The position numbers and the translations under genes are program-made. DNA of 64,000 nucleotides from Onthophagus taurus (lineage: Eukaryota; Arthropoda; Insecta; Coleoptera; Scarabaeidae). The notes beneath the pieces are model-generated. The model was not told the DNA's origin. It worked only from the letters and a program-made list of their open reading frames with translations, and ran no database searches. Positions 8,695 through 40,961 of this stretch are shown one piece after another. Location of the stretch: contig NC_091967.1 of assembly GCF_036711975.1 (NCBI RefSeq), forward strand, positions 7,254,001 through 7,318,000, given 5' to 3'. Position 1 is the stretch's first letter, and each line of letters starts with the position of its first letter.

Positions 8695-11600
8695 ATGCCC
8701 CAGTGTGCCGTAGTTAGTTGTAGCAACACGCACCGGAAGACGAAAGGTGGTTCGGTGCGGTACCATAGGTTCCCTGGGGACGTCGGGACGCGTGCGCGCT
8801 GGGTGAGAGCCTGCGGGAGGCACGTGCAGAACTGCGCCACCGCACGTATCTGTAGTAGACACTTTAGCGAAAATAGCTACGAAAGGGACGTACAACACGA
8901 ACTACTTGGATTGCCCGCGAGGTGCCGTCTTCGGAGAGGCGCCGTTCCCGATATAAATCTTCCCCAAGAAGTCCTTCAAGAGGATGATCACCAAGATAGT
9001 GCAATCGCCGTTCTTTTAGCGGTTGGCTTAGTACCCACTGGAAAAGTGGTAGAAAAGAAGAACGGGGGATTACCATTGGAGTAAGTTATTAAGTGATTGT
9101 AACAATTTGTTTTGTTTCGCTATCGAGCACACTTTCGATTCATCCTCGTTTCGTTTCCCCACCGCCTCGACGACAACGACAACTTTGGATCTCTGACCTA
9201 CTTCTCGACGATTTCGCGTCCCGTATCAGTCTTCAAATTCTCTGTCGCAATCTCTACACGTTCGGGTAGCCCTACGTTTTCATTTTGAAGGTCAGTTTCG
9301 ATTTCGTTTCTACGGTGTGTTCCATCCACGGTATCAGTATTACGCCTCTCCTCCGGTAGAATGTAGGACGTGTAAACATTGTGACTGGCCGAAAATAGCT
9401 TCAAGTACGGAGGTAGAAGCGTACTTTGCGCCGGTTTCCCGTCGTTGAAGTCCAACGCGCGTTCTCCGAAATCTGTGTCACGCACGCTGGCACGAAGGCC
9501 GTACCCTTATCATGGTGTATCGTTGCAATCACCTTGAGTGAGTATTTATTGCTTAATAGCTTGTTTGGCTTTGTGATCGCAAGACGCCACAGCGTATCAT
9601 GTAAGTCTACTTACAAACACCTTTTAATTATTAATTACGACTATATTAATTTAAATTTTATTATAACCTCGTTGCTCAAATTTATTGAACCATAAAGGTT
9701 TCTTAATTGTTAATATGTCGGAGTTGGGTTTCGCTGAACTCCTATAATCGTAAACGGTTTCTGTTCATCGCTTAAAGTAAACAAACTTATTTTCAAGTTA
9801 ACTGATAGTCATACCGAGAAAACAGTCGATTCCGAGACCTTGATGTCACCTACCTACGTATGAGCTTCATCAATGTGATCTATTTTTTTGCAGTTGCTCG
9901 TCTTGATACAAAGTTCAGCCAACTAATCGATCGTATTTTCTAATCTTTAATCCGGAACTATATTAATAAGGGGAAAGGAGTGTCCGTTATAGCCAAAACT
10001 CTGTTATTTAAAAAAAAATTATGTGCACTTTAAACAAATGTTTGAATGAATAATTTTAATGCACGCAAATTCCACAACGTTGCGTTCTTTATTAGTTAGT
10101 TCAATAAAAATATACAATAATCTAGCGCTAAATCTAGATTTAGTGTTACTTCTAGTTTTATTTCAATGAAAAATTTAACGATAAATAACAACTAAAACAC
10201 CCTAATACTAGACCTAGTAGTAGAAACATTCTGGTTTAGCCGCGCGTCTCTTAAGATGGCTCAACAAGACACGAATCGCTCAAGCCATCCTGCATCTGGA
10301 CCACGAGGAAGACAACTTTTCATCGAAAATTATCATGAGCGATGAGGCCCATTTCCATCTCAATGGATATGTGAATAAGCAAAATTCTCTCTTCTGGGGT
10401 ACCGAAAATCCACGTATAACACACGAAGAGCCACTACACCCGCTGAAAGTTAATGCTGGAGGCATCATCGGGCCTTATTTTTTCGAAAACGCCGCGGGCC
10501 AAACGACTACTGTGGACGGCAAGCGTTACACAGCCATGCTCAACGACTTTCTCCTTCCTCAATTGGATGAATTGGGACTAGAGAATATGTGGTTCTAACA
10601 GGATGTAGCAACGACGCATACTGCACGAGCCACAACCGAAATTGCATTTCCGCGTCGCTTTATCTCTCGTTTTGACGATTTGCACCAGCCGACAAGGTGG
10701 TCCGATTTAACCGTTCCAGAGTTCTTCTTTGTGGGGTTTTTCGAAGTTATGAGTCTAAGTTAACAAACTTCAGACTGTTGAAGCTCTTAAACAGAATATC
10801 CGTCAAGAATGGGAGAACTTATCGCCGAAAGTTCTGTCGAGAGTGATGGAATATGTTATAAATCGGGTCAGTATGGTCATCAATTCTGGCGGCGACCACT
10901 TGGTTCATATCATTTTCTCAACTTAATGAAAAAAAAATTAAGACATCAAATAAATTATGTTTATCCAAAAGTAGAATCAAAGAACAACTTTTGTGCCACC
11001 TTGTATAACAATCTAGCGCTGAATATGTATTAAAACTAGAACTATCACTAACACTAGAGCCTACACTAGATCTAGAACAAGAATCATTCTAAAGACGGAT
11101 AAACCCAAATGTTTCTAGTTCTAGATGTAGTGTTAGTTCTAGTTTTGCACTATCACTAGAACTAACACAAGACCTAGAACTAGAATCATTCGGGTTTAGC
11201 CGTCTTGAGAGACGTGCGAATAACAACTAAAACTAGAAGTACCGTCCTTGTTTTATATATCGTATAGACAACTCGGAGAATACACCGAATTTATCTATGA
11301 ACATGGAATATAGCAACTTTTTAATAACTTTTAATTTTATTAACTCGATATTTCTTTTCATTATTTCAGTTTAAATAAAATGCATGTTATGGAAGATGTT
11401 CACGAAGGTTGCAATACGCAACAACCATCCTCGCCTGGTCACGCGGATCAAAGACAAGATATGATAAACGATATGTGCAAAAAAGAACTCGAAGAAAATC
11501 CACCCGAATCTGAAAACTTAAACATAACAGAAATTAAAAGAGAAGATATTCCAAACGAAATCAAAATGGAGATAGTCGATAATCACACGCCGCCGAATGA

Positions 11601-16642: not shown

Positions 16643-19600
16643 TTATCTAGGTATGTTCGGATTAAGCATTGGATCCAAATCGAAATCCAACACTAACAAT
16701 TTGGTCTCTTCAGTTCCATTACGACTTCCAACGGCGCACACCAACTTAGTATCGTTAGCTCTTATCCGCCAAACAACGCCGCCTGAACCACCGCTATCCA
16801 AAGCGACCAAATTTCTAATAAATTCACCTGTTCTAACATCCCATAACTTTACAGTTCCATCATCGGAAGATGTTATTACGAAACGATTGTTGAATTGTAG
16901 GCAAGTTACGGCTGAATGATGTTTAAATGGTCCTTTAAAAAAATAAATACATAAAATGGTGGTATATAATAATAACTAAATTACAGTCAAACTTTGATAT
17001 AACGGATTAATACGGGGAATAACAACTAAAAGTGCCGTATGTATTTTAATGTAAGTACTAGTTCAATGAAAAATATACATAACTATCTAGCACTAAATAA
17101 CAAGTAAAACTACAACTAACACTAGACCTAGAATTAGAAAGTTTCGGGTTTAGCTGTGCGTCTGAAGACGGGTTTAGCATTATAACTAATATAGACTGAC
17201 TTTAATCAATGATTTAAATCAAAAATAAAACTGTACTTTATTACAAAATTTAATTTAATTTAACAAGTTTTCCTGCCTTTTAACACCTAACTTGTTTCAT
17301 AAAGTAGAGTGAACAAGCCCAAATATTGAAAATATTCTCTCAACAGAAGCTAATGAACAAATTGCACATAAATATTGTTTTAATAAGGCAGTACCTTCTA
17401 TGTCTAGTGTTAGTTCTACTTTTAATTGTTATTCAATGCTAAATTGTTGTATATCTTTATTCAACTAAAAGTAGAACTAACATTAGACTTAGAACTAGAA
17501 ACATTCAGGTTTAGCTGTTTTAAGAGAAGTACAGCTAAACGCGAATGTTTCTAGTTCTAGGTCCAGTGTTAGTTCTAGTGCTAGTGTTAGCTCTAGTTTT
17601 AGTTTTGCTGTATTTTAATTTACCTGATAAAGTTTGAAGACATTGTCCCGTGACGATATCCCAAACTTTTACCGTTGAATCCGCATTTCCTGAAACTAAA
17701 ATATTATTTCGTAGTTCCATTCCCGACGTAAGTGATTGATGCCCCATCAAAGTATGTCGACAAGCTCCAGTTTCAACCTCCCAAACTCGAATACTTGTAT
17801 CTAATGATCCACTAACCACATGAACTCCATCAAACTGAAATTAGAGTTACATTAAAAATCTTTCCCAAAACATTTCTTTAACCACAAAAGAAAATTATAT
17901 TATTCTCATAAAAACTTTGGTATCATTTTTTAAAGGAATCACGTTCAAAAATTATGATAATTTTTAACAGACTCAACTAATAAATCAGACCTTTTACTAA
18001 ATAATCATAGAATTGTTTTAAAAATAAATTTTATTCTAAATTTTTTTGCTACCTGTAAAGAATAAACTCTGTTGGTGTGACCCTGTAAAGTATGGAGACA
18101 CTCTTCGCGTTCTGGATCCCACACTTTCACCATAAAATCATATGCACCCGACACAACCAATTTTCCGTCATATTGCACACAACGGACAGCCGCCATATGA
18201 CCAATTAAATGATGTAAACACTCCCCAGTTACGATATCCCACACTCGCAAAGTAGCATCGCGGGAACCACTTACTACTCTAAAAATAAAATTTTCAATTT
18301 CAAATATGTTTTGAGTAAGTTAATAACTTACTTTTTATCGTGGAGGTGCATACATCTAACAGTGGAGGTGTGCCCATACAAAGTATGTTTACATATCCCA
18401 GTATCAGCATCCCAAACTTTTAAAGTTCGGTCCGTACTACCACTAATAACTATTGATCCAGACATTTGCGACGACCACACACCTCCAGTATGACCTACTA
18501 ACGTACGAAGACACTAAAAAAATTAAATAAAATTTTTAATATTAAACTAAAGAAATTCGAACGAATCAATTACTTTTCCCGTTACAGCATTCCAAACTTT
18601 CAACGTATTATCATCCGAACCACTAACGATTTTATTCCCACTAAATTGCAAACAGGTGATTACATGATCGTCATGGCCTTTTAATAATTTTGGGGGTCGA
18701 ATTGATTTTGATCTCCAATTTAATTCGATTGCATATTGACGCATATACGCTAACTACAAAAATATATCTTAATAAAATTAATTCTTTTGGGGTCTATTTA
18801 TCAATTACGAAGTATATGTTAGTATTGTCGATATTGCAATAAATAAAAAATTAAAATATTGCATAGAATCAGGTTTATATTAATTATTCAGGGTCGCTAA
18901 TATGTATGGAAACGGTCAGTTATCTCCTAAAGTAAGATAGCTAGAGAAAAATGTTGAGATACAAAAGTTTTAGTGTTATTTAAAATCTATTACAATAAAT
19001 ATATAAAATATCATCAAAAGACCTTTTAAAGGACATAATAATAATAAGGAATAAAGAATTTTATCAGTAAGTATAAAGTCTTTTGATGTTTTATATATAC
19101 AGGATGATTTATTAGCTCATCATCAAACTTTGACTTATGATAGCTAATCCAATTACCAAAAAAAAATGTTAATGAACATATGTCCTATTTCAGTTATTTA
19201 CGAAATTATAACACATTAAAGTTTTAATTTTTATATCATAATTAACTGCAACTTTTTTTTTTAAACATAAATATTACAAATATTGTTCAAAATAGCGTCC
19301 TTCTGCTAGAATACATGCTTCACAATGACGAATTAAAGATGTTGGACCATTATTACCAATCCACTTGTTTGGAAAATATTGGTTTAACCACTCAACAACT
19401 ACTCTTCCGCGATGAGGTGGGGCATCATCATGCTGGTGCTACATATTTAGAACTACAGTAAGAGATATATCTTCAAGTAAATCAAAAAGTGTATTGTTCA
19501 AAAAAATCTGTAATTTCTAGTGTTCAAACGTCCATCAAGTACATGCAAACCTAGTAAATTGTTGCTAAATATTCCACTCCAAACGTTGATGCTGAAACGT

Positions 19601-22086
19601 TGTTGAAATTTCCTTGGTCTAATCACATTCGGATTTTGTAATGGCCAGATATGTTCATTATGGTAATTATTTATACCATCTCGTGTAAAACATGATTCAT
19701 CTGTCCAGAGAACATTTGAAATGAAGTCATTATTGTTGCTGCAATAACCATTCACAAAATGCTAACCGTTGCTGATTATCTCCTGGCTGTAGAACATTCT
19801 GTTTACGATACGGATGACGGACTTCGCGGTTCAACACGCGTCTTGCAAAATTTTGACGCTTCTTCGTCCTCCTACGTTAACTACATGCGGTCGAATAGCT
19901 TTTGCTGGAGCAGGATTACCTGTTTCTCGAAGTCTTCTGAAAGAATCGCTAAAAACTGCATAATATGGCAAATGACGTAGTGGAAATCTTTCCTGATATT
20001 CTCGTACTGATTGTCGAGCATTTCCATTGCAAAAATACACAAAAATTATATCAGCATACTCTTCAGTGCGATAAGCGTGCATTTTGAGTTTCTTCTTGTA
20101 TGTAATAATTAAACTTTACATATTACAATGACAGCTTTGTTTTTGTTGAATGTTTGATTTTACTGACTATTAATAAATTCGCATCATAGACCTTAATTTA
20201 ACCGTTTTCCAGATATTGAGCTTTTAAATTTATTTATCTAATTAGTGACGTAATTTATTTTTGTGGGCAAATTATTTAAACTATTTTTGTATTTTTGACA
20301 TGTGTTATGATGTCGCTACGTTGCTATGGAGATGAGAAACTTTCAAAGTTACCTTGATGAATTATGAACAAAATCGACGAAAATATTTTTGTGTAATTTA
20401 TAACAATGATTTTCAAACTTCAATATCGCGAAAACGGTTAACTTTAGGTTTATGATATATTATTACATGAATTTTGTTTAGAATTTCGAGTTGACTCAAA
20501 ATATGTAATACTATACAGGTGTTCCATTAAAGAAAACCCAACTTGGTTTCGTCATAACTTTTTGACTGACCTGGTATACTTAATTTGTCTTTATTGTAAT
20601 AGATTTTAAAAAACACTAAAACTTTAGCTATCTTACTTTAGGAGATAACCAACCGTTTCAGAATACATATCAGCGACACTCTATATTGATAAATAGACCT
20701 TGGTTGATTAATTATTTTTACCTTCCACATTGACATTTGACTATTATTTGATTTTGGTGAGCCCCTTTTAGTTGCGCAATTAAAAATACCAGCCTCTTTA
20801 CACTTCTCCTTCCATAATAAGTTATCTTCCGCTAAAAATCTCCAACTTCGACATGTTTGCGCCGCCCTAATTAAATCGCGCGGTTCCAAAAACGATAAAA
20901 CCGTTAACGCTAATTCGCGCGGTAACAATGATATAAAATCCCGTTGAAACTGAGGTTCTATCACTTGCATCATATGACGTACTTGAGTCGGTTCGCATCT
21001 TGCTATTAATTCGTTTATTGCTAATAGTCTTTCTGCATTCGACCAACGCTAGAAATGAAATAACGTATTCTTTTAAAGAAATTATTGTTTTTTTTATTAA
21101 TTTTACTTGAAATTGCATTAACCATTCAGACATTTCTGGTGGTGGATTGTCTTTAGTTGGTATAACAGCTCTTTTAAGTTTATCATTAGGTGTCATGTGA
21201 CTGGAACTACAAATTTCATCATTAGGAGGTGTAGTTTCGCCATCTTCAATGGTCTCATTTGGGGAGGTGCAAAAAAGTTTTTGATGATCATCATCGGGTA
21301 AAAGTTTTTTACAAGGGAAACCATTTTGAATATCCAATTTTCTTTTCCTCTAAAACAAAAAAAAAAATTTTTTTGAAATTTTTTTTTTATAATCTTTATT
21401 AATAATAATTTAAATGTATTATTTATCAGAGAGAAGATTAGCTAAAACATCATTTTTGAGTTATTTTATTAATAACTTAATCAATTTTAATAATATGTCA
21501 TCATTTTTCTTTGCTAAATTTAATGAAAATAAAATAAATCTTACCCAACACCTAGGATTCGAATCTGTAGAACAATATTTATGATTAGAACTAGACGGTA
21601 TTGTAGTGCAACTATTATCAGACACAGTTTCAGTAATAAATTGGGATTCGTCTTCATCCTTAACAATAATTACTTCTTCTAATAAACCATAAGGGGCAGG
21701 AACTTCAATAATATCATCTAGGCAATCCTCCCACCTCTCTTCTTTTTCCTCTTGGTCATCTTCACATTCCTCCAGATTCACTTCACTTAAAAATGTTGAT
21801 TTATCAGTTCTATCCTCTTCTAAAGGATTATGTTCTGTCACCTCATCTTGTAATATTAATGAATTATGTGATGTACCTTCAAAAACGTATTATTAATAAC
21901 CAAAAAAAATAATTGAAACAAATTCTTTTGATTACCTGGTAAACTATCAGTACATAAACTCTCTAAACACACAGTTTCCGTTGGACTAGGGCTTGTATCA
22001 GCTTTGGGGATGTCTTGATCACCATCAAAAGAACTAGTAGATTCGTTCAAGTTATTTCTGGCTTTTGATAGACATTGTTTTTCCAT
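16643..22086 (-). CDS. FBXW7/ago: F-box/WD40 repeat protein FBXW7 (Archipelago), SCF ubiquitin-ligase substrate receptor
   Basis: Coding exons in transcript order are 22086-21936, 21876-21545, 21349-21107, 21048-20722, 18753-18574, 18513-18332, 18278-18053, 17834-17624 and 16932-16643. They sum to 2142 nt (713 residues), close to human FBXW7alpha. An acidic N-terminal region carries a basic RKRKLD patch; the dimerisation helix ([14 protein letters not shown]) starts near residue 243. The F-box (about 278-324, [16 protein letters not shown]) is followed by eight WD40 repeats. The three arginines that bind phosphodegrons are kept: [15 protein letters not shown] and SRDATLRVW. In other animals it targets cyclin E, Myc and Notch for degradation. 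An acceptor at 22096/22095 just before the ATG implies an upstream non-coding exon. Intron 18754-20721 holds a transposon. Confidence 0.95.
17020..17182. repeat. Dispersed palindromic repeat family, copy 4
   Basis: It carries ataacaactaaaagtgccgt, atgtattttaatgtaagtac, actaacactagacctagaat, tagaaagtttcgggtttagc, and a short inverted end (tgcgtctgaagacgggtttagc). It lies in the last FBXW7 intron (16933-17623). Confidence 0.65.
17398..17616. repeat. Dispersed palindromic repeat family, copy 5 (inverted repeat next to a splice site)
   Basis: Arms in both orientations are present: actaacattagacttagaac plus tagaaacattcaggtttagc against gctaaacgcgaatgtttcta plus gttctaggtccagtgttagt. The copy is in the last FBXW7 intron, and its end lies fewer than 10 bases from the exon 17624-17834, on its donor side in transcript orientation. 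Confidence 0.7.
18791..20699. mobile_element. TIR element in an FBXW7 intron, with a likely TTGG target duplication
   Basis: The ends are inverted repeats. Both begin GGTCTATTTATCAAT. Further in both share TCGCT-ATATGTAT, GAAACGGT, GTTATCTCCTAAAGTAAGAT followed by AGCTA, and then AAGTTTTAGTGTT and TTTAAAATCTATTACAATAA. The left arm holds an extra ~65 bases between the terminal 15-mer and the rest. TTGG flanks both ends (18787-18790 and 20700-20703). Transposase remnants on the minus strand (19260-20082) and a separate acaggatgatttatt/acaggtgttccatt pair inside suggest a nested insertion. The element has no effect on the flanking coding junctions. Confidence 0.6.
19260..20082 (-). pseudogene. 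Degenerate DUF4817-type Tc1/mariner transposase
   Basis: On the minus strand, 20082-19831 encodes the N-terminal helix-turn-helix: [20 protein letters not shown], then [13 protein letters not shown] and [10 protein letters not shown] shifted frame at 19755-19498 encodes [19 protein letters not shown], then [20 protein letters not shown], matching the first catalytic Asp region. A third piece near 19443-19270 reads [20 protein letters not shown], then [12 protein letters not shown], the second Asp region. The three pieces are in different frames, so the gene is dead. This family is common in insect genomes. Confidence 0.8.
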
Positions 22087-23415: not shown

Positions 23416-23573
23416 TATACACTGTGTAATTAATTATCCTACCCGACGTCATCATTGCAAGTATGCAACCAAATACGCAAATCGCGTATTGTAATACCAA
23501 AACTGTGATATTGGTTGCATACTTGCAATGATGATGTCGGGTACGATAATTTTATTAATTAACACACTGTACA
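23416..23573. repeat. Hairpin (MITE-like) inverted repeat
   Basis: The left arm (23416-23471) contains acccgacgtcatcattgcaa followed by gtatgcaaccaa; the right arm (23511-23573) is its near-perfect reverse complement (ttggttgcatacttgcaatg followed by atgatgtcgggt). The arms extend through attaattaat-like ends to acactgtg/cacacagt-like ends. The loop is about 39 bases. It has no coding capacity. Confidence 0.75.
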
Positions 23574-24126: not shown

Positions 24127-27006
24127 ATGAGAGATAAATCTGAGAGATATGTGGATGATTGTAAGAAAAAAGAAGAAAGTATACATGAAAATGAAAATCC
24201 GGAACCATCAGTTGCACCTAAACCACAACCCATTAGAGTAAAAATGACATCGGGGGACCCAGTATTAGATGCTCATATACGGGAATGGTTAGCATGGGAC
24301 AAAAATAAAACAACCCTTGAGCAAATAAAACATTTAGTACGACATAACGAGTTTAACCAACTTCGTTTAATGTTTATGAATCGATTACAATACTCGATAT
24401 ACGGTTTTAAAGGACATATGGAAGCTGGGTATAACGCAATGAATGATATCTTTGTTGTGCAATGTGGTCAAGGTTTATTAAGATACCTGGAAACGAACGA
24501 ATGGAAAAAATTAAAATCAGCTGGAATTGTAATTGGGCACGATGCGCGTCACAATAGTAAAAGGTTTGCTGAACTGATAGCAACGATTTTTGTTCAAAAA
24601 AATTATCCCGTTAAATTGTTCAATGTGGTAGTTCCTCGTATTCTGGTTGTTAAAGCTATTATTAAATACAGTTCAGCAGCCGGTGTTATGGTTGGACTCA
24701 GTACAGGTTCAAGCAATGAAAACGGACTACAAGTAATATCATCAATATCATGATAATATCAGTAACCTGTTATTTTGTTTCAATTCAGATTTTTGATTCG
24801 TTTGGGGTACAATTCGTGCATCCCATTGAATCAGAACTTGAAGATTGTATAAGAAATAGCTTGGAACCGCAATCATTATCTTGGGAAACGACGATATTGA
24901 GCAATTCGGAGTTAAGAACGAATCCGCTGGCGGATGTTTTAAAAGAGTATTTGGACTCGATTTCTGAATATGCCATGCACGATTATAGAGAGATTAATAA
25001 AAAATCTTTATTAAAATTCACTTATACAGCTTTGCATGGGGTTGGTTTTATTTATATGGCTCGTGCTTTGGACATTCTTCACGTTCATTTGGTTCCAGTT
25101 GAAACGGAAAAATATCCACTCCCTGACTTTAGTAGTAGTAGGTAATATAAGAATAAATAAAAAAAAATACTGTTTTCACACAAAAGAAAATATAGTTATA
25201 GATAGATTGTAGAATGTATGGTGCCATACATTTTTTACCTCAAGGTCTTTAATAAGACAATCAGTTGAACTTATAAGTATTAAATATTTTGTTTTTTTTT
25301 TGTTAGTTTTTCAATTATATTTTTAATAAATATTATTAAAACTATCTTATCCAATTTTATTACAAATATGACATTACTCGCAAAAGAAAAGTAAAACTGT
25401 TGATGTTACCTCTGCTCTCCCCTGCTATATGAACATTATTTTCCTTCAATCGAGAATAGTACTAAATTATTATTTAACATTGTTAAAAATTTTGTGTAAA
25501 AAACAATAATATTAACAAGTTTTCACAGCAATATTAAGTTTACGTTATTAGAAAGGTAGTGTTAAACTGGTTGCAAATTTTTTTATAACACCCTCAAGCA
25601 GAAAAAATAGACTCAACAACCTTTCCATACCTATTAATTAATATATTATCTCGGCATGGTACACAGATTGGGATCTAAAGTTGCACTCCATCGAAATAGC
25701 AGAAATTTGCTTTGAGTTCCCAAACAGAAATAATTTACATTTCGAGTTTTTCTAATAACTAGATTTTATTAGTCCTTTGAGTTCAATTCGCAGAATGTAT
25801 TTAAATCTTATATGTTTAAAAAATTTTATTTTTTTAGTGTACCGGACTTCAGAGGTGAAATAAGACTACACAGAGCTGTTCAAGTTGCTAAAGAGCAACA
25901 CAGCGATTATATTATTGCCAATAATTCAGATTGTTCTCGTGTGGTTATCGCCGAGAGAAGACCAAAGTTAGATTTTTTTATATAATTTTATAAAATATCA
26001 ACCGTTTTGTTTTAGTACCAATGAATATAAATTTTTTAACGCCGATGAAATAGCTTTGTTGTTAGCTTGGTGGAATTATCATATTTATCAAGATAATGTC
26101 CATACGCAACGGGAAGCATCAAATTTATTCATGGTCGGAAATATTTTTAATACAAAATTGATTAAACATATGGCTAGAATTGATGGATTTTATTTTATGG
26201 AAACGTTTGGTGGAAAATGGCTAGGTTAATAATAATATTAATTTTGATTAAGTTTTGAATTTATATTTTATTAGGACATACTGTAAAACAATTAATGGAT
26301 CAAGAGAGACCCGTAATTTTTGCATACGATGGTTATGGTTATATTGTAAATCCTTTATCATTTACGAATGATGGTCTTGGAGCCGGAGCGCAATTGGCAA
26401 CTTTGGTAAATTACTTAAATCATCATCACATAACTTTGGAAGACCATTTAGAGGATATGTATAAACAATATGGTTATTACACGAGTTTAAAGTTTTATTT
26501 TACTACTGAAAGTGTGGAAGAAACTAACGAGATATATAATCGAATGAGATATCATAAAGATGTTCAAGAGGTAAATTATGAATTAATATTTTATTATTAT
26601 TGCAGAAAAAAAATTTTTTAGTATCCTAAATCAATGGGAAATGGAAAATATGTAATAAGATTTATTCGGGATTTAGCAAACAAATTAGATACAGCGGAAG
26701 AAAATAAAAGAACCACTCTACCTGAAGATCCCAACGTGGAATTATTAAGTTTTAAATTTGATAACAACACAGAAACTACTTTGTATAATTACAAATTAAC
26801 CCCACTATATTTAAAACTTCACACATCGATATGGGGACCAGGAAACACTCCAGAGTAATTTAGTTAAAAATGTATACTTTTTAATGATATAAATTAATTG
26901 TAGAGAACAAGAACAATTAAGAACAAATTTAAACGATACAACCAATGTATTCATCAACGAGTTTTTGGAGACTTTAAAACATCAATTATCCAAAAATATG
27001 GGGTAA
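24127..27006 (+). CDS. PGM2-like phosphoglucomutase paralogue with degraded active-site loops (probable pseudoenzyme)
   Basis: Coding exons are 24127-24732, 24789-25141, 25838-25966, 26016-26224, 26275-26570, 26622-26854 and 26904-27006. They sum to 1929 nt (642 residues), with every junction GT-AG and in frame. The fold-level sequence follows PGM2 throughout, for example HDARHNSKRFAELIA and AGAQLATLVNYL. The active-site loops do not. The serine loop [11 protein letters not shown] is GLSTGSSNENG (Ser kept; His, Asn, Pro and Lys lost). The metal loop DPDADR is NSDCSR. The sugar loop EEAIGY is DGYGY. The phosphate loop RTSGTEPK is [21 protein letters not shown] is YSIYGFKGHMEAG. Catalysis is therefore unlikely; the clean frame argues against a simple pseudogene. 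The N-terminal 40 residues are a charged extension. The intact paralogue lies at 41298-43577. Confidence 0.85.
25142..25837. other. Intron 2 of the PGM2-like gene
   Basis: This is the largest intron of the gene (696 bases), phase 2, at the same position as intron 2 of the canonical PGM2 gene. It is AT-rich, and I see no repeat or exon in it. Confidence 0.6.
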
Positions 27007-28018
27007 TAATAATAATAATAATGATTTAAAAATGACATTATCTTTAACTTATAGGAAATGAGATTACCAAATAACGACAAAAGGAAAAATAAGAAAAACA
27101 CGTGTCGGTGGAGTAATAAAAAAATTAAATTATCCCGATTAGTGGCTGGAGTTCATTTAGTTACACCAGTTAGCTAATTGCGCAAAATGCATCCGCAATT
27201 AGTTTATTAAAAAGGCAACTGAAAAAATAAAAAACATCAGGATGCCGCTAATAATCTAATTTGCGCTAATTTCGTTCCCCCATTAACGAATTTTACTCGA
27301 TGGAATATTATAAATCAGCTATTTATCGATCAACAAAAAAAAATGTAAAGAAACGACAAATAAAAAATCAAATGAGATCTTTTTGACATAATTTTTTATT
27401 AACTTTGATAAATAGATGCAAATATATACAGCAAAGCGAAAAGTGTTTAACAAACTCTCAAAAAGATAATTTTCAACAATAACTAGTTGAGCAAACTGGA
27501 TATGTATTTATTTATTTTTCTTTAATTGCTTATTTATTTATCCTAACCCTTTTTACTTTTTTAGTTTATTTCTCTTGTTAGTTAATAATAAATAGTAATA
27601 ATTCTAATCGACATTAGTTTTTAGAATTATATCAAGCCTTAAATTTCGTTTTATTATCACTAATACAATAGTTAATTATATCACATTAGAGTGGGGAGGA
27701 GATTTTAACTATCAAATCATTTTAATCAAGAACAACTTTGCTTATTAACACTAAAAATTTTAAAAACAATCCACTCCTTATTCACAATTTTTTGTTCCTT
27801 TCATTAATTTATAACCATAACAAAATAATAATAATAAAAATCTTTATACTAAAACGTATAACTTGTTATATAAAATTCGATAAAGCTTCGAAAACGCGGT
27901 GTTTGAAGACATTTTTTGATATGTTACATGAGTTCGCTTAATTTTTAGTGTGTATTTTTGGTCGATTTTTTTATTTTTAATTTAAGAAATAAAAAACTTT
28001 ACGTTTATGTAATAATTG
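27007..28018. other. Convergent spacer between the PGM2-like gene and the Fuseless-like gene
   Basis: A canonical AATAAA at 27115-27120 about 110 bases past the PGM2-like stop is a likely poly(A) signal. The rest is AT-rich and should include the 3' UTR of the minus-strand Fuseless-like gene. The open frame at 27738-27941 has no recognisable domain. Confidence 0.45.
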
Positions 28019-31000
28019 TCACACGACGTGGTTATTAGGCTGTTTTTCGTGAACCATATGATTAATATCTGCAATATTATTATCGATATCCTGTTTTCGT
28101 TTCGCCAAAATGTCCAATTGCAATCGTTTGGCGATTTTTTTCGCGCGTTCTTGTTGGAAAATTAATCGTAAATAATAACAAGGGAAAATCACGCATTTCC
28201 CGGCCGGTTCTTCGGCATCGATGTAAACACCACGAACCAAGAGCGAATTTGAACATCCCAATAAAACCAACAAAATCAAACAAATCCAATGGGTTATCCA
28301 ACAACTTATTTCTTGATTATCTAAAAAGTAAATCGATGGAGAAAAAGTTTATTTTAAAATTTTTGATATTAACCTGGCAAAAAGTATAAGTTTAACAAAG
28401 TCCAAATTCCTCTCCAAACATTAACAGTTCCAAATAACGAAAATAACAAGAAAATATCAGCGGCGATTAAACGTAATCCTCCTTGGAGTCGGTCGCAAAC
28501 CCATCTCATTACCGGCTGAAGAAGAAACGCCAATCCAACGGCTAAATAACCAATCACCTAAAAACATTGAAACATAAATTCATAAAAAGCTAAAAAATCC
28601 CACATGTCAAGTTCATCGGTCAAAATAGACCGGATTAAATGAAATTAGGTCTGAATTGTATTCTTTGTAAAGAACCGCGGGCTTTAAAAAAGCAAACAAA
28701 ATAGACGGAGTGCAGGAAATGGCCCATTATCAACTGTGTCAAGTGCTAACGGCTACGTAAGACGTATTCTTAGAGTGAATACTATCAATTTAAAATCGGT
28801 AATAAAATTACATCAGCAATTTTTTTTTAATACTAACCAAACTACACCAAGCTGATAATGAAGCACTTTCGGGAAACAAAAAGTCGTCTAAAAGAACCCA
28901 AGCACCTCTCCACACGAACACTACAAGAGTTCCAACAACGAGAACCGAAAAGATACAATCCAAGACGTATAACGTTGTTTTTTCGGCCATCTAAAACAAA
29001 TATATAGTATTAATAAGGTTTTTTCAATTTGAATTGTTGGAAAACAAGTTATATAATAAAAAAAATTGTACATTACTAAATGTAAGTTTCATTGACAATG
29101 AGAAGGAGTTTATTTCCGCTATTTATTGTGTAGTAATTATTTATAAGTATATACAGTCATATTAGAGGAAATAATTTATACCTCTTGAACATAACAGGTT
29201 AATCTTACATCATTTTACATCGTCTCATATTTCCTAATTATTATACAGAATCTAAAAATAATAGTACTTTTTATTAATATTTGTGTTGACTTATTTTAAA
29301 CAGATCTGGTGAATCCCATGTTCATAACCGATTTATTCAAACAAACTAATATTTTGTGTAATGGATGATATGTTTTAATTTGATTTTGTCATACAACAAA
29401 CTTGTAAATAAAGATTTTTCAAACGATTTCCCCTTTATTATCGCATTTTGTTATAATTTAACTAGAAAAACATTGCTTAAAACTTAAAACCACACAATTA
29501 GATACACAATTTTTCTTTTTACCCCATAGATGGCACTCATAGCCAACATCAAAATAAGTCTTGAAATCAAAATAACCAAACAAATCATCATTTTGATAAC
29601 TTAAACAGTTATTTAAAAGCTACAAATATTAGTTTGAGAATGCGCATGAAAATTTATTATAAATAAAATGATTTAATTTTAATATAAATTATTTTTAACC
29701 CGTTCGTCGTTGCTTAGTTACGCGTTGGTTGCCGTTAGTTACCCTTAACCGCCATCTTTATCACAAGGACGAATAGGAATTATAGTTGTGGTGACGCTTA
29801 ACTTGGCGGGAAAATGAACTTATTTAAAATCGGTTAACTTTGTGAATTCCGAATATTTTGTGAGATAATTCGAGTTTGAATGAATTTTCAAAGAAATTTT
29901 TAGGAAATGCCATTATTGAGATATAAAATAATTCTGGTAGTCGTAAAAGAACACTAAATAAGCAAAAAATTTAATAATTTTCAATTTTTAATCATAACTT
30001 CATTGTCCGTAGTAAATAATTAGAGAATTATATGTCTGTGGTAAGTATATCAAACTGGGGTAAGCATAACGCCAAATCTAGCAATGGATGTTCTGCTTGG
30101 TCTATCTCCTTTGCATTTGCATATAGAGAAAGTGTGCAATCAATGGCGTCAGATTTGACGGAATCACTACCAGTGATTAATGCTCGATACCAGATTGTGC
30201 TGCCTGAACGACAATCCTGGATCGAAAAGGAAAATTCTCTGGTTCAGGCAGATATTTGCCCCCCCAGAGATATTTGCCTACCCAGTAGTAAAAAAAACTT
30301 TAAACATACTGAGTTGTGATAATAGAGATTCTCTGATCTGGGTCTCAGGTCACTCTGGGGTTGCTAGCAATGAAGCGGCAGATGAGTTAGCACGAAAAGG
30401 CAGCGCTAAAGCGTTTGTGGGGACAGAGCCATCAGTTGGTTATCATTTGCGTTGGCCAAACATAGGATTGAACTGTGGACTGAAGGGAGACTTCGCCTAG
30501 TGTGGACCATTTCTTCTCGAATGAGACACGCTAAGTTCTTTATTAATATCGGAGACGGTTGAGCATGTTTTATCTCTGCTGTTAATCGTATCAAATTCTC
30601 GATTTTTTGGGTCGCAGTTTATCTCTCCAAAGGATCTGAATGACTTTTCACCGAGCAAGGGACTAATGTTCGTTCAGACTGTTAAGAGCATTGGACTGCA
30701 CGGTAAAATTTGATAATGTTATCTATCGGGGTGCAATAAATCATTGAGGTCTCGGTGCAAGGTTGGTTGGTCCGCCTACTCGATATACAATAATTTATGT
30801 AAAGAATTTGATGTGGAAATAAAAAGAATGTTAAAAATGTTCAAATATAAGGCAACTTTACAATGTAACTACAAGTTCAAGGACTTGTGGTAAAATTAAT
30901 ATTAATAATTTCTATTTTTTAGACCATTAAATAATAATGACTTATATAATTATTTTAAATTTAAATAGAAATTGTTTCATTACTAATATTCCTTATAATG

Positions 31001-31747
31001 CTACGTAACCAAATAGCAATTTATTGCAGGTAAGAAAAAGATTGAAATTGACTCGCGATTTTCCATTTAAATTTTCAAAATTACTAAATGACCAAATCTT
31101 AGAGGCAATTTGCTTTGTTGTAACAATTTCATATAATCATCCAATTTTATTCCCATTAATAACACGCAATGCCAAAAAAAAACGAAAAATGTCATTAAAA
31201 TTATTACCTTGATTCTAAACATAGTCATAACAACGAAATATTCCTCAACGTGATCTGTGGCTATGGCAAAAGGAGGTGCAGAAACATTTCTTAACGTTCT
31301 CAAAACGGCCAAAGCTATAATTCCAATTACAAATGGTACTACGACCACTGTTAAATCTTTAGGATCGGTGTATTGATCTAAAAGGTTCCATGGTCCTTTC
31401 CACCCGTTAACACACACAAAAGCGAAAGCAACGGTGTAAGCTCGCGACACAACATAGTAAATGATCCGATTCTTATCCGGGTGGAAACGTTTGGTAAAGA
31501 AGCCCTGCGCGATATCGAAGAATAAGTGTCCACAAATCCCGATTATAGTCGAAATAAGCGCACTTAAAAGTTTATCATCCGGATAAACGTAAATATTCAT
31601 TAATTCCCAAACGCTACGCCAATACCCGACTACTAAAGGTGCTACCACGACGGCAGAAAATATTGAATCCATTACGCTTAGTAATAGGTGATAAGCCGTT
31701 CCACCAATTTTGAAATTTTCGGCTATTCCTGCGGTGCTTCCACGCAT
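28019..31747 (-). CDS. fusl-like: Fuseless-like multi-pass membrane protein (N-terminal module 1 plus shared C-terminal half)
   Basis: Coding exons in transcript order are 31747-31208, 28990-28838, 28557-28374 and 28320-28019, 1179 nt or 392 residues, all in frame. Exon 1 supplies the first hydrophobic segments, with the family's aromatic pattern (VVGYWRSVWELMNIY, CVNGWKGPWNLLDQY) and LRNVSAPPFA. The downstream exons repeat the pattern: TLVVFVWRGAWVLLD and VNVWRGIWTLLNLYFLPG, then a last membrane segment (WICLILLVLLGCSNSLLV) and a charged coiled tail. About eight membrane segments fit Drosophila Fuseless, which acts in presynaptic membranes in calcium channel organisation. The 2.2 kb intron holds a LINE relic. 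Two further N-terminal modules lie upstream on the same strand. Confidence 0.85.
30032..30730 (+). pseudogene. LINE RNase H and C-terminal relic inside the Fuseless-like intron
   Basis: The plus strand encodes LIWVSGHSGVASNEAADELA followed by RKGSA, the RNase H C-terminal motif of Jockey-like non-LTR retrotransposons. Further pieces are RMRHAKFFI, then VEHVL and RFFGSQFISPKDLNDFSPSK, then GLMFVQTVKSIGL, which match the conserved tail of such elements. Frameshifts and stops separate them. It lies antisense in intron 1 of the Fuseless-like gene. Confidence 0.75.
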
Positions 31748-32876
31748 TTTTATTATTTAGTTTTTTGTATACAGTGTTCGATTTCTTTATCTGTCACCTT
31801 CGCGTTCTAACTACTTTTTTGATAGCTTTAAAAATTTATAACCTAATTTAACCGAAACCATGAACATTTCTGGCATTCTTTTTTGGCACGTTATCAAACT
31901 GAATACTGATGATAAAATGAATGGATGTACGAATGAATAACATCGGTGTTGCCCTAATAGAAATTGTTTGGGTTGTAGTAGGGGACCCCCACGTGATAAT
32001 GGGGCCAAAAAGAGACACACGCAGAAATGACGTTTGTTAAATAAATTGCGAACTGATGGATTCTTTCTTTGAATGATTAAATTCACTTATTTGACTTGTA
32101 AAAATTAATGTGTGTCAAAAATATATCTCAAAGTTTATTTTGAGTGATTGAAAATTTTCAAAGTAATTCGATAATATCTCCATTTGAACACCTTAAAATC
32201 TAAATATATGTATATTAACATTTTATTTCAAATATAATTTAAAAAAATTAATTTTGTATTAAAAATATCAAATATTTAATAAAGCTAACTTCATTTCCAT
32301 ATTGAACATTATTTCCAATTATATATTATTTTCTTCATTTGATTTGATTTTGTTAATCATTTTTGATTTCAAATTTGAAAAATTAATGTTTACATGTAAA
32401 TATTTATTAGATAAAATTAATTTATATACATAAAAATTTATTTTCAATGAAAAGATCGGCAACCCAATTTACACTGAATCGATATGTTATCGGCAACTTT
32501 AAATGCATGTCTTGATTAATTTCAAATTTGACCAAAAAGAATATTTATATAAATATTTATTAATTAAAATTAATTTTTGTTTATAAAAATTAATTTTTAA
32601 TGAAAAGATCGGCAACTCAATTTACACCAACTTAATATGTCGTCGGCAACTTTAAATATAATTTTTAATTAATTTTAAATTTCTCCAAAAAGAATTTATT
32701 TATTTATTTGCACCTCTCCCCTTCTTTATTTGTAATCAAAATGTTTTAATTATAAAATTTTTTTCATTAATAATTATTATTTTCAAAACGGTGTAACGTT
32801 GGTGGTCTACCTTAATTTTAATTTTATTGTTTGTCCTTTTAATTTATTTAATTTTCTAATATGCAAAACAACTTAC
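31748..32876. other. Spacer between Fuseless-like N-terminal modules 1 and 2
   Basis: I searched this stretch on the minus strand for the family's WRGxW and LRN motifs and found none, so no C-terminal-half exons for module 2 are visible here. Bases 32100-32850 are very AT-rich. The two short similar stretches near 32453 and 32600 (aatgaaaagatcggcaac) form a small local direct repeat. Confidence 0.5.
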
Positions 32877-33458
32877 GTTAGTTCTAAATCGTGTGGGAAT
32901 ATCATAAGGGGCAGTACTATTATCCAAAATAATCACGAAAGGTGCCGCCAAACAATTTCTTAAAGATTTCATCGTTATTAAACAAAATAAGGATAATCCA
33001 AAAACGATAATTGTACCATAAAGACCATCTTTGACCGTCCATTGAAGAATACAAATAACGGAGTAAAAATAAACATAGACTCTCCGAATTATTGAATACT
33101 TAACATTTTTCTTCAACTTGTCTTTATCGAAACCGATAAAACGTTTAATAATTTCGGCGTATTGCATTATAAAGACGTGAAGCAAAACGGCATTAAAAAA
33201 CGTTGCGTATTTTGGGAGATAATCGACGTAGAGATCCATTAAGGTCCAAACGCATCGCCAAAACGATACTACCAAGAAACAAATTATGATTACCGATATT
33301 AAACAATCAATAGCGTGTAATTTCTTTTTGATTTTCTTTACTTTACGCAACTCTTCTTTCTTCGGATTAATTCGATTCGAAGTCGATATTTTTTCTCTTA
33401 CAATCGTTGTATTATTATTTTTTATTAAATCCAACGATTCGATGTCACCCATTTCCAT
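32877..33458 (-). CDS. Fuseless-like N-terminal module 2 (single coding exon, open at the 3' splice donor)
   Basis: The exon starts with ATG at 33458 and runs 194 codons to a consensus donor AAC|GTAAGT at 32877/32876, phase 0. It encodes a charged cytoplasmic N terminus, then the family's hydrophobic segments (VSFWRCVWTLMDLYV; VYFYSVICILQW), MKSLRNCLAAPFVIILD, and ends IPTRFRTN. It aligns with module 1 from end to end, including the donor position. No downstream exons for it exist before module 1, so it probably splices to the shared exons at 28990-28019. A truncated tandem duplicate is the alternative. Confidence 0.7.
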
Positions 33459-34381
33459 TATAATTATTTTTTGTTTTCACTTTTTGAATGTACTCGTGAG
33501 ACTGATGTATAATTCTAAACATAGTTTCAGTCAGTGGCGCTACATTTTCTAAATTATTTGAAGTTATTAGCACATTGGCGACACGAATCTCCACCTTGAA
33601 CCGCCGTCGTTTTAGTATTGTTATTAACAATTATTTTCTACGACAAACATTCATATGAAGAGAGATGTTTATTTGATTTTTTAGAAAGAAATATTAAAAG
33701 ATAATAATATAATTGTATAATAATTAATAATTGTTTAACAATGAAATAATATCAATTAAATTTAAATTTAAAAATGTATCTTATAGGCAGCCCAATATAC
33801 AATGTCATAATTTTTTTTTAATAAATACATAAATTTAATTAATTAATTATCAGTTTTAATAAACCATTTTAAATAGTAACTAAAGTTTATTTTTGTGATG
33901 TTAATAATTGTTGCTAAAACTTGGATTTTTATGTTTTTAACTTCAAAAAATGAGTGAATTCGAATTTATATAAGCAACCAAACACACATTGCTTTATAAA
34001 CAATTTTACTGTCAAAAATTTAATGAGATTTTTTCAGTTTTATTAAATAATTTCTTTATCATTAAACTATAAATGATCTTTCAAGTCACCGTTGTGAATT
34101 AGATCAAAGATAGAGATTTTTAAAAACTTCCAAATGATTTTTAGGAATTCCTGGATCCCCTAAGGATCCCTAAAGATGAGCAGATGGAAAAATATTATTC
34201 CCAAAATAACCACTTGTTTAAGTTCTTATTATTAATATTGTAAATTTAAATTACTTAGCGCATTGACTCTACTGACGTGTATTTACTAAAATAATTAACA
34301 ATTTTAGCCGATACAAAACATATCTCATTGAAAATTTAAATACAAGCAGAATACTTACTTACTTTTTTTCTAATAACTTAC
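33459..34381. other. Spacer between Fuseless-like N-terminal modules 2 and 3
   Basis: The stretch is AT-rich. It probably holds the 5' leader of module 2 and perhaps its promoter. I found no Fuseless-like C-terminal exons in it. A small block near 34150-34180 (ggaattcctggatcccctaa, then ggatccctaa) is GC-richer but unassigned. Confidence 0.45.
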
Positions 34382-35002
34382 CGTTATTCTATATCTTGTT
34401 GGAAAATTAAAAGAAGCATCGCTACTATCCAAAACTAAAACGAAGGGTGGTGCTATCGTATTTCTGACAGATCTCAATAATCCCAAACAAAAAACGGAAG
34501 ACATTAATATAAAAGCGCTCAAACAAATCTTGTGATGTTTATCTTCTGTTAAAAAATCGAAAAAGTGCCAAACTCCGCGCCATTGCATCACGCAAATCAG
34601 CGCGTAAAAATAGGCGTGAATTCGTCGCAAAACAATGTATCGGAAATGTTTTTTGATAGCGACTCTATCTCTGTCAACAAAATCTTGTATAAATTGCCGA
34701 ATTAGTAATAAACAAATATGTAGAACGGCCGCTAAAACGAAGGATTGAGCCCAGGGAAATAAGTGCCAATAAATTTCTAAAATTTCCCAAGTTCCTCGCC
34801 AAAAACCGACCACTAATGGTGCAATTATCGTTATTGAGATTAATGTATCGATGGTTTTCACAATTTTGTTCACTTTTTTGCGTTTTTCTTCTACCGTTTC
34901 TACATGTTGAATTTTACGAAGATCGAAAGTTTTGATTATTTTCACTTTATTCGTTTGAAGTGTAAAACATTCTTCTTCTTCGTTCTGTTTCTTTTTCACC
35001 AT
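34382..35002 (-). CDS. Fuseless-like N-terminal module 3 (single coding exon, open at the 3' splice donor)
   Basis: The exon starts with ATG at 35002 and runs 207 codons to the donor ACG|GTAAGT at 34382/34381, phase 0. After a charged N terminus come hydrophobic segments with APLVVGFWRGTWEILEIYW, AYFYALICVMQWRGVWHFFD and LLRSVRNTIAPPFVLVLD. The exon ends FPTRYRIT, exactly where modules 1 and 2 end. It is the furthest upstream of the three. Like module 2, it lacks its own downstream exons, so it may be an alternative first exon of the Fuseless-like gene. Confidence 0.7.
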
Positions 35003-37410
35003 GTTGTGTTATAACTATAAAAGATGACGCCAAAATGAAGGTGCAATGAGAAAACTGGAAAAAAAAGGAGTTATATAAATGGAATTAAAAAAAAGGGATT
35101 AGGTTTTAATTCAAAGTAATTTAGATAATAATGGAATACTTGAGAATAAAGAATAGGAACAATTTGTTTAATTATATTTGTTTTTAAACAAATAAATCTA
35201 AAATTTTATCTTAAATTACGACAATTAAAGACTTAAATCTTTGTAACTTGGCGGTCATTAAATTCTTTACAACCCATCGATTAAACTTAAATCTTTACCT
35301 TAAACTTTATCATGATTTCTATTTATAGAATTTTTTTTATAAATTTATTTATGAATTTATGTTAACATATAACAATAATTTTAAATATTCACAAAAAAAT
35401 TTTCTTTTATTGAAAAAATGTTTTGTTCAGAATAAAGGTATTTAACATATTTTGTTGAAACATACCTTAAAAAATACTTTAACTGTAGATAGTTGTGTTT
35501 GGTGGTGAAGGATTTGCAAAAATCGATTTGTTGCATGTGAAGTGTTGCCAACTTAAAGAATATGGATTAGATTACGTTCAGCTTTCTTATATTTTTGAAT
35601 AATGATTGACAAATTACGAAAACTATGTTATCTTTGCCTTGTTTAATTTTATAATCGGTTATTTTCTACATCAAGCGGTACACAGTTTGTTTACGGAGAT
35701 ACTCAATTATTGATGTTTTTAAACAAAAAATGTTAAAAAAATGCGTTACCAAGGTTACCAAGTTACTACTAATTTGCGTTTGATTAAAAATTAAAAATTT
35801 GTTCTTTTAAATTATTGAATATGTTCCATAATTTTGCCGCGTACTGTATAACATATGTACAATGTGCAAGAAAAGTAATGTCTCAAATGTCAGTGTCAAT
35901 GAATACATACAACAATGTACAATTTAGAAAGGACATCTTTGGAAATGTCACTTGATAGATAAACAAGTTCAATCTTCTTCAAGCACTTCTTTTGTGTAGC
36001 TATGTTTTCTTTGAATCTTTCTTTAATTAAACTTACATTTTGAAAGCTCATCACACAAATAAGTTATTATCATTTTTCATCAGCTTTATTTTTAGGTTCG
36101 GATATCTTTAGCCTTCCAATACAAAATACAAAGTTAAGACCTTAATATGCTTTAAAATTATTGATACAAGAAAGTATTCTAGGAAATAAAACTTTTTTCC
36201 ATTAAAAATTGTTTTTTTTATTATTTATACTTAAATATATATGTAGAAGTGTTTTACATATTAAACACTTTATAAATCTACTTCAATGCATAAAATCTAA
36301 TCTAATATAAAATAAATTATAAATTGAATACTCAGACATTTTAAAAACAATTTCGTTTAATAAGTAAAAGCGTTAATTGCTGTGAATCCTGTGCACGTGG
36401 CTTAAATTTTAAAGTAATTTGTGTTAAGCAGGTTAAAAAGAAGATGCGAGGAGTAAAAACTTAGTATAAAAGTTTATTATCATTAAATATTTTCAAATAC
36501 AATATGTAAATATTATAATTTAAAAAACTTAACTTTCTTATTAGTTTCATCTATTTTAGGTTATAAGATTAAAAGTTTAATATTTTTTTGACAATTTTAA
36601 CGCATTAATCTACAAGACAGTTTATTATCATAAAAAGTTTATCAAGTTTTTGCTTCTTCCAAAAATATTTTTAATTAGTAATAAATATTTCACTTCACGT
36701 TCTAAGGCAATATTCGTTATTCTTTAAAATGTAACAACTTCTTTTAACATGTATTTAATGTCCTCAACGGAGACAATTTAAAGTTATCTTCATCAATTCA
36801 TCCATACTTAAATGTCCAAAGTGAGTGGGAGTACTCATAGAGAAAATGCATACATAGAAAAACCACAAAGCAACGATAGAAAGACATAAAAGGTAAATTT
36901 CATCAAATACAACGAGATACAATAAAATAAGTATAGAGGAGATCGAAATTACAAACAGTTTCAATTTTACCCAACCTTCATATCATAAACTTTTTTAAAT
37001 ATACTTACTTTATTTATTAAATAGTTTCAGATTATTATTACTTGATCAAATTCGTTTTTGTTTACCAAGCAAGTTATTTAGGATAGTTAATCTTCAAATG
37101 AAAACTTTGAAGCTATTTAGAAGATTACCTTTCTATATAACTCACCCTGTATAATATAGACCAAAAATATATTATTAACAGAAAACAACCTCATAAAAAA
37201 TAATACTAAAATAATACTATTAAAAGATCGATTAATAATCTTATTCGAATAATTTTGATAAAATTCTTTTGAGAGTTTATTAGTCACCTTTTTAATACTT
37301 CTAAAATCCCTCTTATTTTAATCTTAATCAATCCGAATCCGTTGTGATTCCTACAGTTGTTACTGACGAAGCAGAATTAACACACTAAAAGAAAAAATAT
37401 CCTTTATATT
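35003..37410. other. Intergenic between Fuseless-like module 3 and the STARD10-like gene
   Basis: The stretch is very AT-rich. A hydrophobic open frame on the minus strand (36964-36764) begins with TTG and has no recognisable family. I support no gene here. It should include the STARD10-like 3' UTR at its right end. Confidence 0.4.
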
Positions 37411-40400: not shown

Positions 40401-40961
40401 AATGTGAAGAAGTAAAAATGATAACACGATTAAAATAATATTATTGACACTTTTTTCTAAGATCCAAATAAAAACTATCTAAAACAAACAACCCATTGAC
40501 CTAAATCCATGTATGTATTAAAACCTTAATTAAATTCCAGATAACACTGAATTGATCTAATAAAATGGAGATTGGGGACTTTTCCTCCATGACGTCAGTC
40601 CATAATCAGTAAGTATGTACCAAATTAAAGTAAAAAAATAAAAACTTTAACCAAATAGGAAAAAACCTTGAAATAATTACTCCAATCGTTTCAATCAGTT
40701 TAAAATGTTTGTCGGTAAGTCACTAGAAAGTTATTTTTAAGTAGTGATTAACGTTGTACGTTTTTTAAAACCGTTTATAATTTAACGAAGTTATATTATT
40801 ATTACAAAACGAAATTATAATTAATATGGTAAATTTTCTTCACTTACTTTGGTGTTATCGCCTTTATCGTAATCCAATTTCCAATCGGCATGGTCATCAA
40901 TAAGATTCCTCAGGTTTATAAAGTCGCTATCTTCGGCGATTTTCACCCTACCTACCTCCAT
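37411..40961 (-). CDS. STARD10-like: START-domain lipid-binding protein, STARD10-like
   Basis: Coding exons in transcript order are 40961-40848, 38099-37907 and 37847-37411, 744 nt or 247 residues, all in frame. The START domain fills almost the whole protein. Matches to STARD10/PCTP include the DVLHDPEYRKEWDEHMI helix, NNDVGYYA, the PPPVKNRDFVLQRSWLDLG strand, YVTQTDPRGKLPSWLVNK, and the C-terminal helix FAPKIVKQLFKAAQGY followed by FKPWIYPEQ. The family binds phosphatidylcholine and phosphatidylethanolamine in a hydrophobic pocket and moves them between membranes. The protein is shorter than human STARD10 at the C terminus. Its start codon lies 336 bases from that of PGM2 on the opposite strand. 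The first intron (2.7 kb) holds a LINE relic. Confidence 0.9.
38100..40847. other. Intron 1 of the STARD10-like gene
   Basis: This is a 2.75 kb intron in phase 0. Apart from the LINE RNase H relic at 39560-40090 it is AT-rich, and I recognise nothing else in it. The minus-strand open frame at 38374-38580 has no domain. Confidence 0.55.
39560..40090 (-). pseudogene. LINE RNase H relic in the STARD10-like intron
   Basis: The minus strand encodes SINILTDSRALKAIYAYTCD, then SALIRECTSNLRELARGNNV and TLWWVLGHRNIEGNDKADKL followed by AKETAK. These are the DSRAAL-like, W(V)PGHxGxxGNExAD and AK motifs of the RNase H domain in non-LTR retrotransposon polyproteins. Flanking sequence is out of frame or lost. 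It lies in the same orientation as the host gene. Confidence 0.8.

Follow-up and report, generated by a model that had tools for sequence, protein, structure and literature searches.

The stretch analysed here, called the window below, comprises 64,000 nucleotides of contig NC_091967.1 of the scarab beetle Onthophagus taurus (positions 7,254,001 to 7,318,000; G000:C2:7254001-7318000 in our coordinates). It carries a gene for the enzyme PGM2 and a second gene, designated PAR (24127-27006, + strand), which encodes a PGM2 paralogue with eroded catalytic loops. The question raised by this locus is whether a protein so altered is still maintained and, if so, in what capacity. Our reading, to which we assign a probability of about 0.82, is that PAR is a maintained PGM2-derived pseudoenzyme which keeps the phosphohexomutase fold, is very probably without the phosphoserine mechanism and is one of four such genes.

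PAR and its parent-type enzyme

PAR consists of seven exons, which splice to 1929 nucleotides forming a single open frame of 642 codons and a stop. GT and AG are found at the ends of all six introns, and re-splicing gives exactly the complete frame described in the initial annotation of the locus. PGM2 (41298-43578, +), an enzyme of the parent type with canonical catalytic loops, is encoded by six exons, is 621 residues long and starts 14.3 kb downstream of PAR. The two proteins align from end to end with 222 of 605 positions identical (36.7%), which bears out the earlier statement that PAR aligns along its length with the PGM2 gene 14 kb away. At a Pfam domain threshold of E 0.001, PAR matches PGM_PMM domains I (4e-17) and II (1e-11) and gives no match to domain III; PGM2 matches domains I to III, plus a sub-threshold domain IV. 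Four PAR introns have counterparts of equal phase in PGM2, at positions that agree to within 3 alignment columns; one PGM2 intron is not present in PAR and two PAR introns are not present in PGM2. The four common positions rule out a retrocopy, and PAR is therefore a gene duplicate formed at the DNA level.

Erosion of the active site

The phosphoserine mutase reaction requires the serine loop, the metal ligands, the sugar-loop glutamates and the phosphate loop. The loop reference was a set of ten bacterial phospho-sugar mutases, obtained with tblastn from plasmid records (10 of 94), by comparison with which the loops of PGM2 are canonical. A description of PGM2/2L1 (PMC5570346) is our source for the loops, namely TASH, DPDADR, FAFEE and the SGT-type phosphate loop, and for what each of them does.

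Exon 1 of PAR (24127-24732), which encodes an N-terminal extension and domain I, has YSIYGFKG for FGTAGLRG in loop 0, that is, Lys for Arg62, an arginine in 92/92 homologues. Its serine loop (LSTGSSNENG) reads GLSTGS against TASHNP; the serine aligns and HNPK is gone, while both Ser and His are present in 92/92 homologues. Elsewhere TP has become RI. In exon 3 (25838-25966) the metal loop DPDADR is eroded to NSDCSR, with the loss of two of the three aspartates, all of which occur in 92/92 homologues. Exon 4 (26016-26224) has GG-KW for TGFKW, the Phe of TGFK being deleted and the Lys kept. In exon 5 (26275-26570) the sugar loop EEAIGY is reduced to DGYGY, and TNDG stands for DKDG, so that Lys433, again found in 92/92 homologues, is Asn. 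Exon 6 (26622-26854) carries YNYKLTPL in place of the phosphate loop RTSGTEPK; the register of this segment moves by one residue between alignments, and the motif is absent in every one of them. Exon 7 (26904-27006) ends in the stop codon. Going by PGM1 numbering, we take Arg62 to be the catalytic acid arginine and Lys433 the base lysine. Residues of these two kinds have been named for PGM5/PGM1 (PMC7761743).

The alignments thus agree with the initial annotation on the reduction of the metal aspartates from three to one, on the replacement of the phosphate loop and on a serine loop that keeps its Ser without HNPK. Its statement that both sugar-loop glutamates are lost is right in that no Glu is left; in detail, a deletion has removed one and Asp has replaced the other. 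The changes in loop 0, TP, the TGFK Phe and Lys433 are losses beyond those it had listed.

The extent of the decay was measured on PGM2 and 92/92 homologous loci, an alignment with 67 columns of 95% conservation or more. Of these 67 near-invariant positions PAR retains 31. When each homologue was left out in turn, the worst of the 92 (L092, a partial match on a viral contig) retained 58/69 and the next-worst 65/69. With the ten plasmid loci only, PAR kept 33/72 and the worst other sequence 72/79; across alignments the PAR counts were 33/72, 32/72 and 31/67. The loss is concentrated in the loops, where PAR keeps 12 of 38 positions versus 21 of 34 other conserved positions (p 0.017) in a set of 82 homologues picked by motif, and 12/36 versus 19/31 in the full set. 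PAR is by this measure (31/67 versus 58/69) a homologue of an enzyme without the key catalytic residues: it has the homology of a PGM2-type protein and lacks the serine, metal, sugar and phosphate loops of an active one.

Maintenance of the gene and the fold

PAR is strongly divergent: it is only 36.7% identical to PGM2, and in two trees no terminal branch is longer than its own (2.73; 1.7). Such divergence might be expected of a pseudogene that died recently, or is dying, and is still free of stops. Against this stand 642 codons without a stop or frameshift and six intact splice-site pairs. In 200 runs of a neutral simulation, in which PGM2 drifted to the identity level of PAR, a mean of 865 events produced 34.7 stops, with a minimum of 23; PAR has none. 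Neutral drift yields about one stop per 25 substitutions, and any neutral period of PAR must therefore have been short. PAR also keeps 108 of 124 hydrophobic core columns, where the neutral maximum was 104. Between PAR and PGM2 the synonymous sites are saturated (proportion of differences, pS, 0.708 versus 0.694 for shuffled codons), and the nonsynonymous sites are unsaturated (pN 0.421 versus 0.720). In a purpose-written branch codon model, a ratio of nonsynonymous to synonymous rates (omega) of 1 on the PAR branch was rejected (twice the log-likelihood difference, 2dlnL, 30.4, 601 codons, p 3.4e-8), as it was after removal of the loops and gap flanks (2dlnL 31.4, 455 codons) and in a four-ratio model (2dlnL 12.4). 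The value near 1 that the initial annotation had named as a refutation was thus not seen. Because it has no stops, a pN far below that of shuffled codons, a kept core and an omega for which 1 is rejected, PAR is a maintained protein-coding gene under purifying selection, and the pseudogene explanation is highly improbable.

The fold appears to have been kept along with the frame, as had been proposed. Besides the core columns, a profile of the four paralogues (PAR and the three genes D1-D3 described below) aligns with the enzymes in hhalign with probability 100 over 586 columns. Structure modelling, one of the checks suggested earlier, gave PGM domain I for PAR exon 1 when enzyme homologues were supplied, and not from the single sequence. 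The proposal that PAR, its fold kept and its active site decayed, has been maintained for a role other than catalysis is accordingly supported by the selection, stop and core tests.

Three further paralogues

The 290.8-Mb genome to which the window belongs was searched with PF02878 and with PAR. Three tandem genes on the minus strand, D1, D2 and D3, were found on the same contig as PAR, 6.6 Mb away (C2:13838053-13853046): D1 (L115; C2:13838053-13840682) has 669 codons, D2 (C2:13846581-13850601) 649 and D3 (L116; C2:13850809-13853046) 692, each in four exons. All have an intact frame and GT-AG introns. Pairwise identity is 60-63% within the trio, 40-43% with PGM2 and 31-34% with PAR; PGM_PMM_I and II are matched in 4/4 paralogues and III in 3/4. 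The initial annotation had missed the membership of PAR in a four-gene family, and the relatives with altered loops which it recommended seeking are paralogues from this genome rather than orthologues of other species.

The active site of D1-D3 is altered in its own way. The serine loop TASHNPK has become SGG[AV]CPK, with Gly for the catalytic Ser in 3/3, and the metal loop reads DPDGCR, in which two of the three aspartates are kept and the third is Cys. The loop-0 Arg is Lys, as in PAR, and TGFK has become PGFR or PGFG. The phosphate loops are RANSGDTK in D1, RMNPKEAK in D2 and RTNPKEAK in D3; the sugar loop has Glu-Glu in D1 only (EEAYGY), Asp-Asp in D2 and Glu-Asp in D3. D1-D3 thus lack the serine, metal and phosphate loops of an active PGM2-type enzyme. 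Of the near-invariant positions they keep 42/67 (D1), 39/67 (D2) and 42/67 (D3). Three gained cysteines, N161C, D321C and Y578C, lie in or beside the cleft loops and are identical in 3/3. Omega among D1-D3 is 0.245, with pairwise dS of 0.9-1.3, and a value of 1 is rejected (2dlnL 270).

Domain I of D3 carries 44 additional residues behind the KYLET segment, a mostly Glu-rich insert not found in PGM2, PAR, D1 or D2. In D1 and D3 the YPRS/YPRT segment is preceded by a Cys-rich insert (CxC...CxCNP), which PAR does not have and which aligns with a shorter GCCNPAPP stretch of PGM2 (43100-43147).

The residues retained bear on the possibility that all four proteins are still enzymes with changed chemistry or substrate, such as a phosphatase, an isomerase or an enzyme of sugar-bisphosphate turnover without phosphoserine. 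Two metal aspartates, acidic sugar loops (EEAYGY in D1), basic phosphate-loop residues, Lys433 in D1 and D3 and the low omega of D1-D3 would fit such a role, as would the Ser, the one Asp and the TGFK Lys of PAR. It is hard to reconcile with the replacements in D1-D3, where the phosphoserine is Gly, a metal Asp is Cys and the loop-0 Arg is Lys, or with the loss from PAR of two metal aspartates, the loop-0 Arg, both sugar glutamates, Lys433 and the phosphate loop. No alternative catalytic motif was recognised in the replaced loops, by judgement and with no search made for one. We regard continued enzymatic activity of this kind as improbable.

A closer rival keeps the pseudoenzyme reading and differs from it only in the mode of action: all four proteins would serve as sensors or sinks without catalysis, their clefts still binding a sugar phosphate or bisphosphate and the bound ligand regulating a partner, for instance PGM2. 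In D1-D3 the DPD residues are kept, the sugar loop is still largely acidic and the phosphate loop contains Arg/Lys; herring PGM5 binds glucose-1-phosphate without activity (PMC7761743). In PAR both the sugar and the phosphate loops are gone, and the sensor explanation therefore fits D1-D3 far better than PAR. For D1-D3 it is a serious rival; overall we judge it rather unlikely.

It has also to be considered that after a single loss of phosphoglucomutase chemistry the cleft of D1-D3 was rebuilt into a new ligand, metal or redox site, PAR being further derived for protein contacts. The serine loop SGG[AV]CPK..NGIK, the metal loop DPDGCR, the added cysteines and the pairwise dS of about 1 are the basis of this proposal, which we hold to be unlikely, a little more so than the sensor.

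Common origin and a proposed order of events

The trees contained bacterial PGM2-type outgroups, and no PGM1 was placed in them. PAR, D1-D3 and PGM2 group together against the outgroups (100/100), and within this group PAR and D1-D3 branch together to the exclusion of PGM2 (support 100/99; 100/95 without the loop columns). PAR and D1-D3 have in common two introns which are not in PGM2: a phase-0 intron (NGxx|xF), which in PAR precedes exon 2 (24789-25141; domain II), and a phase-1 intron after KWL/GWI/RWI, which in PAR follows exon 4. One PGM2 intron is missing from all four paralogues. Either gain of the two introns in the paralogue lineage or their loss from PGM2 fits this one-species comparison. 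Of the 72 positions that are near-invariant in the set of 82 homologues, 18 differ in every one of the four paralogues, among them loop-0 Arg62, which is Lys. These sequence comparisons make an origin of PAR and D1-D3 apart from PGM2 well supported, if not beyond doubt.

The simplest order of events would be one duplication, early loss of catalysis and then expansion; an ancestral loss is suggested because all four genes have changes at the loop-0 Arg and at 17 further near-invariant positions. An old PGM2 duplicate would have lost catalysis once, in the common ancestor of PAR and D1-D3, and the lineage would next have expanded by duplication into four selected genes. PAR would have drifted furthest, its cleft probably being no sugar-phosphate site any more, while the altered cleft common to D1-D3 would be non-catalytic. 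That any of the four proteins still works by the family mechanism appears very unlikely, because D1-D3 have no phosphorylatable Ser at the site and PAR is without most of the other elements.

Several observations weigh against this reading. In PAR the Ser and a single metal Asp remain, as do the TGFK Lys and the Arg that follows the metal loop; D1 and D3 still have Lys433, and D1 both sugar glutamates. In view of these residues, the loss of all activity is what we infer. The loops of D1-D3 are not significantly more conserved than the rest of the proteins (36 of 59 positions identical in all three versus 273 of 570 elsewhere, p 0.057). The pairing of PAR with PGM2 is only borderline rejected (approximately unbiased, AU, test p 0.053; 0.047 without the loop columns), the groups in the trees were named after the first tree had been seen, and long branches are involved. 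Some branch lengths reached the upper bound in the four-ratio model, so that the omega of PAR is itself poorly estimated; dS among PGM2, PAR and D1-D3 is saturated or nearly so, which makes the omega of the deep branches rough and only the rejection of 1 firm. The single-sequence model of PAR exon 1 is poor, with a predicted local distance difference test (pLDDT) score of 36.9. The step to testis or sperm discussed below is one of analogy only.

Comparison with known systems and possible function

PGM2 and PGM2L1, a phosphopentomutase and a glucose-1,6-bisphosphate synthase of the alpha-D-phosphohexomutase superfamily, have the same end-to-end architecture as PAR and D1-D3, in which the TASH, DPDADR, FAFEE and SGT-type loops are replaced, except for the Glu-Glu of D1 (PMC5570346). 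PGM5 (aciculin), an inactive vertebrate paralogue of PGM1, resembles PAR and D1-D3 in keeping the fold (PMC7761743). Unlike PGM5, which is close to PGM1, PAR and D1-D3 group with PGM2 (in trees without PGM1) and have far more eroded loops. Herring PGM5 retains metal and substrate binding (PMC7761743), whereas PAR has lost two metal aspartates, both sugar glutamates and the phosphate loop, and D1-D3 one metal aspartate.

Drosophila Tktl, Pykl1, Tppl, Hexl and others are, like PAR and D1-D3, duplicated carbohydrate enzymes without active-site residues, several of them in tandem (PMC11836677). Drosophila has 28 non-canonical paralogues of carbohydrate-metabolism enzymes; 18 of these are pseudoenzymes, either known or predicted, and nearly the whole set of 28 is restricted to the testis (PMC11836677). 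A word search in part of the running text of that paper gave no Pgm or phosphopentomutase. The sperm leucyl-aminopeptidases (S-LAPs) of Drosophila have another fold and another parent enzyme than PAR and D1-D3; their largest group is inferred to have lost catalysis before it expanded, with purifying selection (PMC3078892). They form a structural part of the paracrystalline material in Drosophila sperm mitochondria (PMC6388916). Pseudoenzymes account for 8% of enzyme-like genes in Drosophila (PMC12869072). GH28 pseudoenzymes of herbivorous beetles have strong effects on digestion (PMC6549527), so pseudoenzymes can matter in beetles.

Based on the Drosophila testis paralogues, for which such a role has been proposed, and the S-LAPs, for which a structural one is shown, we judge it most likely that the product of PAR would be tissue-restricted and act without catalysis, by contacts with other proteins, either as a scaffold or structural part or as a modulator of PGM2. 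By the same analogy the male germline (testis or sperm) may be the tissue in which PAR and D1-D3 act, a suggestion we make tentatively and would not bet on.

Genomic setting

An inverted repeat with arms of 41 nucleotides, 95% complementary, and a spacer of 38 nucleotides lies upstream of PAR (23432-23551). A possible polyadenylation signal, AATAAA (27115-27120, +), is found 109 bases past the stop codon; in this AT-rich DNA it is a weak one. The exons of PGM2 are at 41298-41635, 41845-42366, 42423-42554, 42604-43147, 43198-43424 and 43475-43578 (+). Upstream of its ATG (region 40705-41297), a candidate donor follows ATGTTTGTCG (40705-40714) and a candidate acceptor precedes 41125. Such a splice would give PGM2 a 61-residue in-frame N-terminal extension, Arg-rich and acid-poor, resembling a mitochondrial presequence. 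A mitochondrial isoform of PGM2 is thus possible through the predicted extension, for which the frame alone was checked.

The interval between PAR and PGM2 holds, at 28019-35008 (-), tandem open reading frames (ORFs) of the Fuseless family (PF15993; 31067-31753, 32856-33473 and 34370-35005) and a C-terminal piece of the same family (28019-28345, -). Head to head with PAR, the ORFs at 16643-21889 (-) have an F-box match in 20638-21045 and a WD40 match in 17535-17837, and are presumably Fbw7/archipelago-like. An ORF with a THAP domain (PF05485) is located at 8680-9081 (+), and a transposase-like ORF at 10224-10598 (+), with no Pfam match at E 0.001, is one which we take to be Tc1/mariner-like.

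Significance

Pseudoenzymes derived from duplicated sugar enzymes are already known, among them PGM5, close to phosphoglucomutase 1; both flies and vertebrates have dead paralogues of this sort, few of which have an assigned function. Literature searches covering open-licence papers in PubMed Central (PMC) found no PGM2-derived pseudoenzyme family. A family of four such genes, in which the loss apparently came before the expansion, offers a compact system where the order of events is testable. The newest aspect would be the putatively rebuilt, cysteine-bearing cleft shared by the D1-D3 branch. For annotators and metabolic modellers the four genes are a warning: PAR and D1-D3 should not be counted as phosphoglucomutases on homology alone.
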